DNA of 64,000 bases from NCBI RefSeq assembly GCF_014635245.1, contig NZ_BMCP01000001.1:372001-436000 (forward strand), written 5' to 3'. A model generated the notes under the pieces. It saw only the letters and a list, made by a program, of their open reading frames with translations. It was not told where the DNA came from and did not search any database. Of this stretch, positions 1 to 59,456 are shown piece after piece; position 1 is the first letter of the stretch; each line of letters begins with the position of its first letter. Source of the stretch: Agaricicola taiwanensis. GTDB lineage: Bacteria > Pseudomonadota > Alphaproteobacteria > Rhizobiales > Methylopilaceae. Both the position numbers and the translations under genes were made by a program.

Positions 1-708
1 GATGACACCCGCCTCTGCCGGGTCCAGGCTGCGGCTCACGATGGACTGCAAGGCCGCCACGATATGGCTGCCGACCAGGATCGGATCGACGCATTTGTGC
101 GGCCGGGCTGCATGCCCGCCGAGCCCCTCGATATCGATGCGCAGCCGGTCCGCGGAGGCCATCAGCGCGCCTGGCCGTATCGCGAACTGACCAACCGGCA
201 AGTCGGGGAAGTTGTGCATGCCGTAGACTTCCTGGATCCCGAAACGCTCCATCAGCCCGTCATCAAGCATGGCCTTCGCACCGGCGCCGCCTTCCTCCGC
301 CGGCTGGAAGATCACGATCACCGTGCCGTTGAAGTTGCGGGTCTCGGCCAGGTGCCGCGCGGCGCCAAGCAGCATCGCCGTATGGCCGTCATGCCCGCAG
401 GCGTGCATCACACCATTGCTGGTCGAGGCATAGGGCAGGCCCGTTTCCTCCAGGATCGGCAGCGCGTCCATATCGGCGCGAAGTCCGATGGTCTTGCCCG
501 ATGTGTCACCTCGGCCGTGAATGACTCCGACGACGCCGGTACGGCCGATTCCCGTCACCACCTCATCGATGCCGAAGGAGGCCAGCTTGTCCGCCACGAA
601 GGCTGAGGTCCGATGCTCCTCATAGGCGAGTTCGGGATGGGCATGCAGATCCCGTCGCCAGACCGCTATTTCCTCGGAGAGGGCGGCGATTCGGTTGAGA
701 ACGGGCAT
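1..708 (-). CDS. M20 family amidohydrolase (hippurate hydrolase-like), C-terminus outside window
   Basis: The first 236 residues of a zinc-dependent M20/peptidase-D amidohydrolase, the family that hydrolyses N-acyl amino acids or related amides in the cytoplasm. Visible signatures are HAHPE near residue 22-26, RADMDALP around residues 78-85, the metal-binding HACGHDGHT at 102-110 and PAEEG at about 136-140. The start at 708 is supported by a GAGGTG ribosome-binding site just upstream. The reading frame runs off the window edge, so the gene is cut by the window and not broken. The exact substrate cannot be told from the family alone; hippurate, N-acyl-amino-acid or peptidic amides are all possible. 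Confidence 0.9.
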   Translation of the reverse strand, partial: MPVLNRIAALSEEIAVWRRDLHAHPELAYEEHRTSAFVADKLASFGIDEVVTGIGRTGVVGVIHGRGDTSGKTIGLRADMDALPILEETGLPYASTSNGVMHACGHDGHTAMLLGAARHLAETRNFNGTVIVIFQPAEEGGAGAKAMLDDGLMERFGIQEVYGMHNFPDLPVGQFAIRPGALMASADRLRIDIEGLGGHAARPHKCVDPILVGSHIVAALQSIVSRSLDPAEAGVI

Positions 709-7166: not shown

Positions 7167-7718
7167 TCAGCGCGGTGCGCGCTTGGCGAGGATCCGTTGC
7201 AGGGTACGGCGGTGCATGTTGAGCCGCCGCGCAGTCTCCGAGACATTGCGGCCGCACAATTCATAGACCCGCTGGATATGCTCCCAGCGCACCCGGTCGG
7301 CCGACATCGGGTTTTCCGGTGGGGCGGGCTTGCGGTCACCGGTCGCCATCAGGGCCTGGTGGATTTCATCGGCATCGGCGGGCTTTGCGAGATAATCCAT
7401 GGCGCCGAGCTTCACCGCCGTGACGGCGGTGGCGATATTGCCATAGCCGGTCAGCACGACACCGCGGGCGTCCGACCTCTTCTGCTTCAGCGCTGAGATC
7501 ACCTCCAGCCCGTTGCCGTCTCCCAGCCGCATGTCGACCACGGCGAAGGCCGGCGGCTCAGCTTCGAGCCGTGCCAGGCCCTCCTTGACGCTTTCGGCTG
7601 TCGTGACCTGATAGCCGCGCGCTTCCATGGCGCGCGCCACGCGCTGCAGGAAGGCCTTGTCGTCATCCACGATGAGAAGGGAGCGATCGGCGGGAAGGTC
7701 GGGATATGGCTCCGTCAT
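7167..7718 (-). CDS. actR: ActR/RegA/PrrA family redox response regulator
   Basis: A 183-residue response regulator. The receiver domain has the acidic pocket IVDDD (residues 16-20), phospho-acceptor Asp62 and Lys112. A proline-containing linker leads to a Fis-type helix-turn-helix (SETARRLNMHRRTLQRIL) at the very C-terminus. This HTH is almost invariant in the ActR/RegA/PrrA family, which controls respiration, nitrogen and carbon fixation and acid tolerance in response to quinone-pool redox state. The sensor gene actS lies 64 bases upstream on the same strand. The pair therefore looks complete, and its targets lie outside this window. Confidence 0.95.
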   Translation of the reverse strand: MTEPYPDLPADRSLLIVDDDKAFLQRVARAMEARGYQVTTAESVKEGLARLEAEPPAFAVVDMRLGDGNGLEVISALKQKRSDARGVVLTGYGNIATAVTAVKLGAMDYLAKPADADEIHQALMATGDRKPAPPENPMSADRVRWEHIQRVYELCGRNVSETARRLNMHRRTLQRILAKRAPR

Positions 7719-54963: not shown

Positions 54964-55662
54964 TCAGCCTTCTTTGAAGCGATAGCCCACGCCATAAAGT
55001 GTTTCGATCATATCGAACGCGTCGTCCACCACCTTGAACTTTTTACGCAGCCTCTTGATGTGGCTGTCGATGGTGCGATCGTCCACATAGACCTGATCGT
55101 CATAGGCCGCATCCATGAGGGCGTTGCGGCTTTTCACCACGCCGGGGCGCTGGGCCAGCGCCTGCAGGATCAGAAATTCCGTCACCGTCAGCGTCACCGC
55201 CTGCCCGTTCCAGGTGCAGGTGTGCCGTTCAGGGTCCATCACCAGGGCGCCGCGTTCGAGCACCTTGGCGGCGTCATGGGCCTTGGGGGTGGTATCGCGC
55301 GGACTGAAGCGCCGGAGCACGGCCTTCACGCGCTCCACCAGGAGCCGCTGCGAGAACGGCTTATGGATGAAGTCGTCGGCGCCCATCTTGAGGCCGAACA
55401 ATTCGTCGATCTCCTCGTCTTTCGACGTGAGGAAGATCACCGGCATCTCCGACTTCTGCCGGAGGCGGCGGAGGAGTTCCATCCCATCCATGCGGGGCAT
55501 CTTGATGTCGAGAATGGCGAGATCCGGCGGATCGACCTTGAAGCCGTCGAGCGCGGAAGCGCCATCGGTATAGGTCTGGATACGATATCCCTCGGCCTCA
55601 AGCGCGATCGACACCGACGTCAGGATGTTGCGGTCGTCATCGACCAAGGCGATTGTTGGCAT
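54964..55662 (-). CDS. chvI: ChvI-type response regulator (OmpR family)
   Basis: A 232-residue regulator. The receiver has the acidic pocket ALVDDDRN, phospho-acceptor Asp52 in [13 protein letters not shown] and the [22 protein letters not shown] end. The C-terminal winged helix ([42 protein letters not shown]) is of the PhoB/OmpR type. It controls envelope, succinoglycan and motility genes in rhizobia. It is the first gene of the chvI-chvG-hprK-EIIA-ptsH row. Confidence 0.97.
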
Positions 55663-55812: not shown

Positions 55813-56541
55813 TCAGATGATCGGGCGGGGGGCAAGATCATCCTGCTCGTATTGGGCAAAGCGCGCGAGGCCTTCTGGATCGTGAATCACGATGGAGCCG
55901 TTGGGAATGCTGAAGAATCCAAGCCGCTTCAGCCGGGCGATGGTCTTGTTGGTGTGGACCAGCGACATGCCTAATGCGTCCCCGATGTGCGTCTGATTCA
56001 CCGGAAACAGGAAGCTGTTTTTGGTGACGAGGCCGAGCACATCGGCGCGGCGATAAAGCGTGTAGATGAAGGCGGCCACACGTTCGGCCGCGCCGCGCTG
56101 GCCCACCGTGGTCAGATTGTCATCGACGATGCTTTGCTCGCGCGCGCCGAGCCAGGTCAGCTCATAGGCAAGCTTCGGCATGTCACCGAACACCTGGAGA
56201 AGCCGATTGCGGGGATGAACGCAGAGTTCGACGGCCGTCAGAGCCTCCACGCCATGCTCGGCGGGATCGAGCAAGGAGGATTGCAGCCCGATCAGGTCAC
56301 CCGGCAGCAGGAAGTTCAGGATCTGCCGGCGGCCGTCCGGAAGCTCCTGATAGCGAAACGCCCAGCCGGCGAACAGCGTGTAAACCTCGGCGTCTTCCTG
56401 GCCCGGGTGGATGATATCGGTACCGGCCGCAACGCGGATGTGGTCGCGCTTGAGGCTGTTGATGTACTCGATTTCCACTTCGGACTTCGGGACGAAAGCT
56501 GGGCGGGTCCGCAGGGGGCACTCCGTGCAACGCACCCGCAT
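55813..56541 (-). CDS. Crp/Fnr family transcriptional regulator
   Basis: A 242-residue regulator. The N-terminal RCTECPL has two cysteines (5 and 8), followed by a cyclic-nucleotide-like beta-roll (FAGWAFRYQELPDGRRQILNFLLPGDLIGLQ) and a C-terminal helix-turn-helix (FPVNQTHIGDALGMSLVHTNKTIARLKRLG). The CxxC is not the full Fe-S set of Fnr, which needs four cysteines, so redox sensing is uncertain. It sits 150 bases upstream of chvI and diverges from the LOV kinase. Confidence 0.93.
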   Translation of the reverse strand: MRVRCTECPLRTRPAFVPKSEVEIEYINSLKRDHIRVAAGTDIIHPGQEDAEVYTLFAGWAFRYQELPDGRRQILNFLLPGDLIGLQSSLLDPAEHGVEALTAVELCVHPRNRLLQVFGDMPKLAYELTWLGAREQSIVDDNLTTVGQRGAAERVAAFIYTLYRRADVLGLVTKNSFLFPVNQTHIGDALGMSLVHTNKTIARLKRLGFFSIPNGSIVIHDPEGLARFAQYEQDDLAPRPII

Positions 56542-56667
56542 TATTCACCTCTTTGATGATCGCGCACCGTGTGCCTCAAAATTGCCGAACCTTTCCCGCC
56601 AGGTCGCAGTTATGCAGAATAACGATACTTCGGTCCCGAAGGTTCCTCTTCCCATCAGGCTTTATGG

Positions 56668-57687
56668 ATGTCCTTTCCGTCTTTCGCTGCCAGACTGATC
56701 GCCTCCGCGTCCGCGGCCCTGTCGCGTGGAGATGACGACCTGGAGGCGCTCGAAGGGCTGGATGCGGCCATGGTGGTTGTCGATGCCACGGCTCCCGATC
56801 GGCCGCTCGTCTATACCAATCGTTCCTTCCGGAGCCTCACGGGATATGAGAACGAGGAGATCGTCGGCCGCAACTGCCGTTTTCTTCAGGGCGAGGAAAC
56901 CGACCCGCGCGACCGTGCCAAGTTCCGGGAGGGCGTCGAGGCCGGCAAAACCTTTCAGATCACGCTGACAAACCATCGCAAGGACGGCTCGACCTTCCGC
57001 AACCAGGTGTTTGTCTCGCCTGTCCGCGACGGCGGCGACGTGGTCACGCATTTCATCGGTCTTCTCGTGCCGGTCGATGACGAGGAGCAGAACAACAGGA
57101 TCGCCGAACTCCGCCATCGCATGAAGAATCACATCCAGTCGCTGACCAGCCTGGTCAGCCTACAAAGCCGCAGGGTGGAGGGCGAGGAAGGCCGCCGTGC
57201 GCTGGAGGATCTGAAGGCGCGCGTGGATACGCTCGGCGCGATCTTCGTGGAGCTGGAGACAAGCGGCACGGGCGATGTTGTGGCGCTGGATCCCTTCATC
57301 AAGATGCTGGTAAAGCGCATCCAGCAAGGTTTTGATCCCGCTGAAAATCATCGCATCGTGTTCGATCTCGTGCCGCTCGCCATTCATCGCTCCAGGGCCG
57401 CGATCGTCGGCCAGATCGTCACCGAGCTCCTGATCAACGTTTACCGCCACGCCTTTGTCGATCAGCCGGCCGGCACCATTCGCGTCAGCCTCAGGCAAAA
57501 TGGCGGTCAGGTGGAGCTGGCGGTCGCCGACAACGGGAGCGGTCCTGGCGACAAGTCAAAGACAAAGACGCTGGGACTTGCTATTGTAAGCAACCTCGCC
57601 CGGAGTCTTGACGGAACGTTCGAGCCGATGTCTTCCACGGGTTTCGTGGCCCGCCTCAGCTTCCCGCTGGAGGCGCCCACCGCCTGA
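56668..57687 (+). CDS. LOV-domain blue-light histidine kinase (HisKA_2/HWE type)
   Basis: A 339-residue soluble sensor. Residues 30-138 are a PAS/LOV domain with the photoactive Cys70 in GRNCRFLQG, the flavin-binding motif that forms a covalent adduct in blue light. LVYTNRSFRSLTGY and FRNQVFVSPVRD are also typical. A linker helix leads to the phospho-acceptor His150 in LRHRMKNHIQSL and an ATPase with N, G1 and G2 elements (ELLINVYRHAFVD, DNGSGPG, LGLAIV). It diverges from the Crp/Fnr gene. No cognate response regulator is adjacent. Confidence 0.95.
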   Translation: MSFPSFAARLIASASAALSRGDDDLEALEGLDAAMVVVDATAPDRPLVYTNRSFRSLTGYENEEIVGRNCRFLQGEETDPRDRAKFREGVEAGKTFQITLTNHRKDGSTFRNQVFVSPVRDGGDVVTHFIGLLVPVDDEEQNNRIAELRHRMKNHIQSLTSLVSLQSRRVEGEEGRRALEDLKARVDTLGAIFVELETSGTGDVVALDPFIKMLVKRIQQGFDPAENHRIVFDLVPLAIHRSRAAIVGQIVTELLINVYRHAFVDQPAGTIRVSLRQNGGQVELAVADNGSGPGDKSKTKTLGLAIVSNLARSLDGTFEPMSSTGFVARLSFPLEAPTA

Positions 57688-57842: not shown

Positions 57843-59456
57843 ATGAAGCAGGATGGCGTATGGAACCGCGCACTGGGTGCGGATGCCTTCGGTTTTGAGC
57901 AGCTCGAAGCCGTGCATTGGAATCTCCTGGAGCCGCGTCTTTACGAGGAGAGCATCCGCCGCAACGAAGCGCGCTTGGCCGCTGGTGGTGCGCTGGTCGC
58001 CGACACCGGCAGCCATACCGGCCGTTCGCCCAAGGACAAGTTCGTCGTCCGTGACGAACTGACCGAAGACACCATCTGGTGGGACAACTCGGGCGGCATC
58101 ACCGCCGAGCAGTTTGAAACCCTCCGCAAGGATTTCATCGCTCATGCTCGCGGTAAGGAGCTCTTCGCGCAGGATCTCCAGGGCGGCGCCGATCCCGAGC
58201 ATCGCATCAAGGTGCGCGTCTTCACCGAATTTGCCTGGCACTCGCTGTTCATCCGCAATCTGCTGATCCGTCCGGACCGCTCATCCCTGACCCAGTTCGA
58301 GCCCGAGCTCACCATCGTCGACCTCCCCAGTTTCCGGGCCGATCCGGCCCGTCACGGCTGCCGTTCGGAAACCGTGATCGCGCTCGACCTCGCACGCGGC
58401 ATCGTTCTCATCGGCGGCAGCCAATACGCCGGCGAAATGAAGAAGTCGGTCTTCTCGGTTCTCAACTACGTCCTGCCGGCAAAGGGCGTCATGCCCATGC
58501 ATTGCTCCGCCAATGTGGGTGACGCCGGTGACACGGCGGTCTTCTTCGGCCTCTCCGGCACGGGCAAGACCACGCTTTCGGCAGATGCATCGCGCACCCT
58601 TGTGGGCGACGACGAGCATGGCTGGAGCGAGAGCGGCATCTTCAACTTCGAAGGCGGCTGCTACGCCAAGACCATTCGCCTGTCGGCCGAGGCGGAGCCT
58701 GAGATCTACGCCACCACCAAGCGTTTCGGCACCGTGCTGGAAAACGTCACGCTCGATCCGGAAACCCGCGTTCCCGATTTTGATGACGGCTCGCGCACCG
58801 AAAACACCCGCTGCGCCTATCCGCTGCACTTCATCCCCAATGCCAGCGCCACGGGCCGCGCTCCGCATCCCAAGAACATCGTGATGCTGACCGCCGACGC
58901 CTTCGGTGTCATGCCGCCCATTGCCAAGCTGACGCCGGCGCAGGCCATGTACCACTTCCTCTCCGGCTACACCGCCAAGGTTGCCGGCACCGAGCGTGGC
59001 GTCACCGAGCCGCAGGCGACCTTCTCCACCTGCTTCGGCTCGCCGTTCATGCCGCGTCATCCGTCCGAGTACGGCGAGCTGTTGAAGAAGCTGATCGCCG
59101 AGCACGACGTCGATTGCTGGCTCGTCTCCACCGGTTGGACCGGCGGCCAGTATGGCGAAGGTCGCCGTATGCCCATCAAGGCGACACGCACGCTGCTCGC
59201 CGCGGCGCTGAACGGCTCGCTCAACAACGCCGATTTCCGCACCGATCCCTATTTTGGTTTCCAGGTGCCGAACTCGGTGCCGGGCGTGGAGCCGCACCTG
59301 CTGCACCCGCGCAAGACCTGGCGGGACAAGATGGCCTATGATGCCTCCGCCGCGAAACTGGTGAAGATGTTCCAGGACAACTTCGCCAAGTTCGAAGCCC
59401 ATGTTGGCCCGGACGTGCTGGCTGCCGCGCCGGAAGTGCGGGCGGCCGCTGAATAA
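57843..59456 (+). CDS. pckA: Phosphoenolpyruvate carboxykinase (ATP)
   Basis: A 537-residue gluconeogenic enzyme converting oxaloacetate and ATP to PEP and CO2. The P-loop [11 protein letters not shown] (about residues 234-244) is intact, and [17 protein letters not shown] precedes it. The catalytic metal site is in [21 protein letters not shown]. The closing lid region [22 protein letters not shown] is present. Its context beside ChvI is standard in rhizobia. A strong terminator ends the gene. Confidence 0.99.

Follow-up and report, generated by a model that had tools for sequence, protein, structure and literature searches.

A Gln-less LOV histidine kinase paired with a Crp/Fnr gene in Agaricicola taiwanensis and its probable link to the general stress response

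The genome of Agaricicola taiwanensis carries, between chvI and pckA, a gene for a short LOV histidine kinase divergently oriented from a Crp/Fnr-type regulator gene (Table 1), a position that raises the question of which partner and which output such a blue-light sensor could have. The whole stretch of DNA analysed here (64 kb, hereafter the window) was the subject of an earlier note, made from its letters alone, which suggested a connection with the general stress response (GSR) and regarded the response regulator as missing and the output as unknown. We compared the locus with those of its family, sampled as 18 genomes (the window genome, four of genus g2 and 13 of the sister genus g3), and with more distant relatives. 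The earlier interpretation is partly supported by these comparisons: it was right in direction and too cautious on output.

Table 1. Position of the features of the window and of the compared loci
Feature	Position	Strand	Basis
LOV-HisKA_2 histidine kinase, 339 aa	56668..57687	+	ORF, Pfam, alignment
Regions of the kinase (residues)	LOV about 26-136; H-box His150; N-box 253-257; DxGxG 288-292		
GRNCRFLQG LOV motif with adduct Cys70	56866..56892	+	DNA and alignment
CTC codon, Leu133 replacing the conserved LOV active-site Gln	57064..57066	+	DNA, alignment
Divergent intergenic region, 126 bp	56542..56667	.	ORF boundaries
EcfG-type promoter match GGAAC-N17-CGTT, aimed at the Crp/Fnr gene	56621..56646	-	consensus scan
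Weak EcfG-like match CGAAC-N17-AGTT, aimed at the kinase; not weighed against chance and not relied on	56586..56611	+	scan
Crp/Fnr-type regulator (cNMP_binding + HTH_Crp_2), 242 aa, divergent from the kinase	55813..56541	-	Pfam, alignment
ChvI-type response regulator, neighbour, not regarded as partner	54964..55662	-	ORF, Pfam
PckA, neighbour	57843..59456	+	ORF, Pfam
LovK-LovR-like kinases of the sister genus	L139 3546-4697 (G012); L140 13450-14607 (G013); L141 5193-6350 (G006); L142 5507-6643 (G015)		
PhyK genes aligned	L121 7995-9647; also in L122, L123, L125-L129, L131, L137, L138		

Architecture of the kinase and its LOV domain

Pfam recognises in the kinase a PAS_9 domain at residues 36-134 (67.5 bits), a HisKA_2 domain at residues 147-220 (53.8 bits for a cut-off of 22.3) and a HATPase_c domain at residues 247-335 (34.4 bits), the HWE model staying below its cut-off. 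Among the motifs of a LOV histidine kinase of the HisKA_2/HWE group, the protein has GRNCRFLQG (starting at residue 67) with its adduct-forming Cys70 (the sole cysteine of the whole protein), the H-box HRMKN (at 150), the N-box ELLIN (at 253) and the G1 box DNGSG (at 288), and the intact HisKA_2-type kinase read by the earlier note is thereby confirmed. The best relative of solved structure is the LOV kinase EL346 (4r3a; E 4.6e-41, 144.7 bits over residues 18-335); the window kinase shares with EL346 and EL346-like kinases the short LOV-HisKA_2 format (about 340-350 aa), but differs from EL346 by a leucine in place of the active-site glutamine and by its divergent Crp/Fnr gene. The NCBIfam equivalog for blue-light-activated histidine kinases gives 150.8 bits, under its cut-off of 450, and the structure predicted for the kinase alone is poor (mean pLDDT 53.5).

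With the kinase as query, a protein search of its own genome returned five matches, one being its own sequence and the other four confined to the kinase part, and no second LOV kinase. An order-wide search retained 10 of 397 genomes, among them the window genome and G007 of the sister genus, the remaining eight belonging to a single genus of family f18, and a class-wide search yielded no additional genome among 385 at E<=1e-40 (at most five candidates per genome were scored in both searches). The search of named genomes with a back-translated pattern returned only two distant matches, in an Alkalicoccus and in a Bacteroidota record. The GC (0.621) and GC3 (0.765) of the gene both fall inside the range of the adjoining genes, and base composition therefore gives no sign of a recent foreign origin.

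The LOV domain had been described as intact and photoactive, which holds for GRNCRFLQG and Cys70 but not for the active-site glutamine. Alignment shows that Arg71, Gln74, Arg87, Asn102 and Asn112, which we take to be flavin contacts, are retained. Residues 129-133 read FIGLL where EL346 reads FVGIQ, the glutamine normally closing this last strand in LOV domains. It occupies the site in 12 of the 14 LOV domains covering it (a count without the G016 relic and without a 532-aa G007 protein whose LOV domain is incomplete in the alignment), the window protein having a leucine and that of G115, from f18, apparently a tyrosine. Since CTC is two base changes away from either glutamine codon, one misread base does not explain Leu133. 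The f18 LOV kinase with the apparent tyrosine (L056 1468-2532) reads FVGIYQ at this site, where the alignment is uncertain.

In the work of Dietler et al. (PMC9098866), leucine at the glutamine site is reported to keep the light responses of YF1, NmPAL and AsLOV2, with about half the initial light-induced amplitude for the AsLOV2 variant, and about 350 natural LOV proteins are described without the glutamine, predominantly with leucine or isoleucine instead. Gln-less LOV receptors of this kind can still signal. The window LOV domain resembles the natural Gln-deficient receptors of that source by its conserved LOV residues and its Gln to Leu replacement, but the natural receptor assayed there is a diguanylate cyclase with a methionine and the window protein a kinase with a leucine. 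That the domain has ceased to signal, reduced by Leu133 and by drift to a structural remnant on a light-independent kinase, appears to us hardly probable. The replacement of the glutamine, the halved response of AsLOV2 (PMC9098866) and the LOV domain missing or decayed in nine of the ten orthologues of the sister genus would fit with it; the retention of Cys70, Arg71, Gln74, Arg87, Asn102 and Asn112, the intact kinase motifs, and the light responses permitted in three receptors by leucine, one of the commonest natural replacements, speak against it. With a signalling LOV domain as the preferred reading, the window kinase offers a case for asking if a histidine kinase can still be governed by a LOV domain that lacks the glutamine.

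The Crp/Fnr partner and the chvI-pckA interval

The divergent gene encodes a Crp/Fnr protein in which Pfam finds no receiver domain. In FNR-type oxygen sensors, four cysteines hold a [4Fe-4S] cluster. Only Cys5, Cys8 and Cys107 are invariant across the 17 aligned sequences of this protein, and the FnrL model gives it 78.9 bits for a cut-off of 300, which sets it apart from the FNR type. An orthologue with 54-59% identity is present in 12 of the 13 sister-genus genomes and adjoins phyR in all 12 (in G008 and G015 the Crp gene was placed by its coordinates in the orthologue search, and in G016 PhyR by those of its own search). The thirteenth genome, G010, and the g2 genomes hold no orthologue, their best matches reaching 33-38% (the lone 38% match of g2 being in G001), and the kinase/Crp pair is absent from g2, the four genomes of which gave no kinase match at E<=1e-20.

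The association with phyR extends beyond the family. All eight Crp orthologues examined in other families (at least 54% identity; two genomes of f42, five of f20 and one of f11) have a phyR-like gene no more than about 6 kb away, PhyR being called here by its N-terminal signature and not by Pfam; a ninth one, in G255, sits on a 2-kb contig and stands outside this tally. Among more distant relatives (39-45% identity), nine of the 49 genomes listed were examined in stretches of 11-16 kb: a PhyR or EcfG signature was found in five (by eye in G112), only an HRxxN kinase nearby in two, and neither in two. Three others (G204, G367 and G369), for which the sequence covered reached at most 1.5 kb to either side of the Crp gene, were left out of these nine.

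In the window, Pfam matches of the neighbouring genes fit ChvG, ChvI, Crp/Fnr, EIIA-Man, a C-terminal piece of an HPr kinase and PckA, the NCBIfam ChvG equivalog scoring 511.2 bits, below its cut-off of 740. The adjacency of chvI and pckA, taken by the earlier note as the usual order, holds in 13 of the 16 family relatives having pckA according to a motif search, which found no chvI at pckA in G006, G012 and G013. A PNPOx-type gene, called by motif and by Pfam in one genome (G002), separates the two in 12 of these 13 relatives, G001 being without it, and the Crp/kinase pair occupies this very interval in the window genome. The proposal that a Crp/Fnr regulator and a light sensor were inserted between chvI and pckA is thus correct as to their position but not as to the Crp/Fnr gene being a separate insertion: by the gene order of the sister genus, it belongs with the kinase.

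A local module, in which the kinase would act through a regulator of its neighbourhood (Crp/Fnr, ChvI, pckA) and couple light to envelope or carbon control, could account for the flanking chvI and pckA genes of the window genome and for a divergent pair retained in the sister genus. We consider it very improbable: Pfam shows no receiver domain in the Crp/Fnr protein, the kinase gene proper to ChvI, chvG, adjoins it, and the pair of the sister genus stands at the phyR locus and not at chvI-pckA, so that these neighbours are not conserved. Besides adjacency, nothing was found that links the kinase functionally to PTS, envelope or carbon genes. As a partner of the kinase, ChvI was judged unlikely because of this adjoining ChvG gene and its OmpR-type nature. 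There is likewise no ground to pair the kinase with a receiver protein of about 184 aa at 7350-7676 of the window (minus strand), presumably RegA/ActR-like.

The reading that we prefer, a pair belonging to the GSR, is also consistent with the 126-bp gap between the two genes. With the EcfG consensus GGAAC-N16-17-C/GGTT (PMC12148442, Fig. 4 legend), an exact match was found about 80 bases from the Crp/Fnr gene, placed as a promoter of the EcfG regulon upstream of it would be. It is the sole exact match of the window, where 1.43 are expected by chance, and over the whole genome the pattern shows no enrichment, with 118 sites as against 119 for a reversed control; this uniqueness is consequently meaningless as evidence and only the placement counts. 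When the gap was shuffled with its dinucleotides preserved, 85 of 20,000 shuffles contained a match, and the phyR/nepR gap of the same genome holds two copies of the same motif. We infer that the Crp/Fnr gene of the window is a predicted EcfG target. The sister genus has not kept the motif of this EcfG promoter: no exact match precedes Crp in the 13 GSR loci scanned, and a looser pattern, applied to 12 other Crp upstream regions (11 of the sister genus, G006 not being among them, and one of f11), found a match in G009 only.

By eye, the Crp upstream regions of the sister genus (e.g. L126, L128-L130, L132-L138) share a recurring palindrome, roughly CTATGT-N-ACATAG, which is a possible candidate operator for the Crp protein. 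The gap of the window carries instead CTTCGG-GA-CCGAAG, also noticed by eye, within the spacer of the EcfG-type match.

Counterparts of the kinase at the phyR locus of the sister genus

A HisKA_2-derived gene adjoins PhyR in 10 of the 13 sister-genus genomes. It sits between PhyR and the divergent Crp gene in nine of the 12 genomes bearing the latter, and the tenth counterpart, that of G010, adjoins PhyR in the genome without a Crp orthologue; tblastn detected no PhyR-side kinase-like gene in G006, G012 and G013, and served to locate the counterpart of G008, which was read from its open frame. All ten counterparts have kept the H-box histidine and lost both the N-box asparagine and DxGxG, which the window kinase retains. 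Their N-terminal parts are unequal: that of G007 (346 aa) has a complete LOV domain with cysteine and glutamine, that of G016 (299 aa) has a relic aligning to LOV but without GRNC, and the eight others have no LOV domain.

Pfam HisKA_2 falls just below its cut-off on the counterparts of G007 and G009 and has no match in those of G014 and G016, so that their kinship with the window kinase rests on profile and tree comparison. A profile built from the nine LOV-less counterparts and scored on 439 proteins, including the PhyKs, other LOV kinases and the ORFs of window-genome loci, gave 183.9 bits to the G007 protein, 142.1 to the window kinase and at most 73.3 to the rest. In the tree of DHp/CA domains the window kinase joins the sister-genus counterparts at 100/99, with and without two long-branch kinases omitted from a second tree. 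A forced placement among the f18 LOV kinases fares poorly (p-AU 0.026). The LOV-domain tree independently pairs the window protein with that of G007 (99/95); both the kinase and LOV trees carry long branches, for which the program issued a warning. A tree built on the GSR core proteins places G007 and G016 together as sister genomes (100/99), with G006, G012 and G013 attached to that pair (99/99), a topology implying that the decay of LOV in G016, its loss in the short forms and the loss of the gene are separate events. The loss in the short forms itself may have involved one or more events, a single one being compatible with the data.

These forms can be arranged, as a scenario to which we grant somewhat less than an even chance, into a stepwise change from a blue-light kinase to a GSR phosphotransferase that no longer senses light: an intact Gln-less LOV kinase in the window genome, a LOV domain on a dead ATP domain in G007, a decayed LOV domain in G016, none in eight genomes, and the gene gone in G006, G012 and G013, the Crp/Fnr gene staying with the module (in the window genome as in 12 of the 13 genomes of the sister genus) and being, in the former, a target of EcfG itself. 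If this were true, the G007 protein would be a light-gated phosphotransferase. The counterparts share with PhyT/PhyP of Sphingomonas melonis (PMC5898713) the phyR locus, the conserved phospho-accepting histidine and a degenerate ATPase domain; but PhyT is membrane-anchored, and they are short (202-346 aa in the sequences read) and derived from a LOV kinase. The window kinase itself does not have the PhyT-type degenerate ATP domain, its N-box asparagine and DNGSG being intact. Such a natural series, losing ATP site and photosensor at the PhyR locus, lets one ask how PhyT-like phosphotransferases arise.

Predicted output through the general stress response

The window genome possesses a GSR core, phyR-nepR-ecfG-phyK, on contig C4, with no Crp or LOV kinase gene alongside, and the Crp/kinase pair is on contig C1. 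Pfam confirms its PhyR, NepR and ECF sigma factor, as well as the PhyR of G007 and the NepR of G008, and NCBIfam assigns both PhyR proteins (window genome and G007) to the PhyR family; the HisKA_2 protein PhyK of C4 scores 166.2 bits with the NCBIfam PhyK model, below its cut-off of 750. The Crp/kinase locus is probably a GSR module detached from this core, whose kinase would feed PhyR directly or by phosphorelay. The present arrangement may have arisen by removal of the pair from the GSR core genes, or of these genes from the pair. Because the kinase is not beside phyR in the window genome, its link to PhyR rests on its relatives, i.e. on the linkage seen in 10 of the 13 sister-genus genomes, and since these counterparts have no recognisable ATP site they show an association and not a kinase function. 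The suggested GSR link has nonetheless gained from the gene order of the sister genus and of three other families and from the EcfG-type match in the shared gap, and it was too pessimistic to consider the response regulator as missing, PhyR being the predicted partner.

The relay variant is plausible in view of two observations. The 11 PhyK proteins aligned, from the 18 genomes, have lost the N-box asparagine and DxGxG but keep HRVKN, as in PhyT, and PhyK may be a phosphotransferase across the whole family; moreover, the Caulobacter PhyK works as a phosphotransferase that gets its phosphate from a single-domain receiver (PMC5964349). The ORF list shows no single-domain receiver gene beside the window kinase, the nearest receiver being ChvI in the genome-wide receiver search, which also found single-domain receivers in this genome. 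One of them, with PFVFFTGY, adjoins another HisKA_2/HWE kinase on contig C7, and this motif differs little from PFXFATG[G/Y], which appears in the title of a work cited by PMC5898713.

In the proposed sequence of events, blue light would form a Cys70-flavin adduct in the LOV domain, and the Leu133-bearing domain would relay the change to the His150 kinase. The phosphate would then reach PhyR, either in one step or by way of a single-domain receiver and a PhyT-like PhyK, and PhyR~P would strip NepR from EcfG, a switch well established elsewhere (e.g. PMC5964349). EcfG would finally transcribe, among others, the Crp/Fnr gene beside the kinase. Light may activate or repress this response, as both signs of control occur among LOV kinases (PMC12148442, PMC10359499).

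A functional precedent is RT-HK of Rubellimicrobium thermophilum, also a LOV kinase of the HWE/HisKA2 group, which phosphorylates PhyR (PMC12148442). The HWE kinase inside its GSR cluster is another protein in that account, and the PhyR partner was demonstrated for RT-HK where it is predicted for the window kinase. With Caulobacter crescentus (LovK/LovR and PhyK; PMC5964349), the locus would share a LOV protein in the GSR network and a PhyK acting as phosphotransferase, but the window kinase has no adjoining LovR and the LovR-paired kinases of the sister genus fall on another branch.

The Caulobacter system also inspires an alternative which we hold to be unlikely, in which the light kinase would serve a single-domain receiver controlling a target outside the GSR, in the manner of LovK-LovR for attachment or as a phosphate sink, and would touch PhyR only indirectly or negatively. 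LovK and LovR do drain phosphate from the GSR in Caulobacter (PMC5964349), single-domain receivers exist in the window genome, including the C7 one beside another HisKA_2/HWE kinase, and a separate LOV kinase with an adjoining receiver occurs in four of the 13 sister-genus genomes. On the other side, the window kinase lacks such an adjoining gene, its orthologues adjoin phyR, and its grouping with the LovR-paired kinases, a different branch, is rejected (p-AU 0.0003).

Taken as a detached GSR module, the locus adds a variant to the known GSR LOV kinases and is no new system, its distinctive traits being the Gln-less LOV domain, the Crp/Fnr partner and the decay series of the sister genus. An orphan light kinase gains in this way a testable partner and output, and the recurrent Crp/Fnr gene at GSR loci suggests an extra transcription-factor layer of the stress response, acting through presumed targets of the Crp protein. 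The Crp/kinase pair and the decay series were not found in a literature search, which was narrow and gives no proof of their absence from the literature.

The LovK-LovR-like kinases of the sister genus, each with its adjoining single-domain receiver gene (Table 1), constitute a second LOV kinase type in this genus, and three of the four genomes that encode them (G006, G012 and G013) are those without a PhyR-side kinase.
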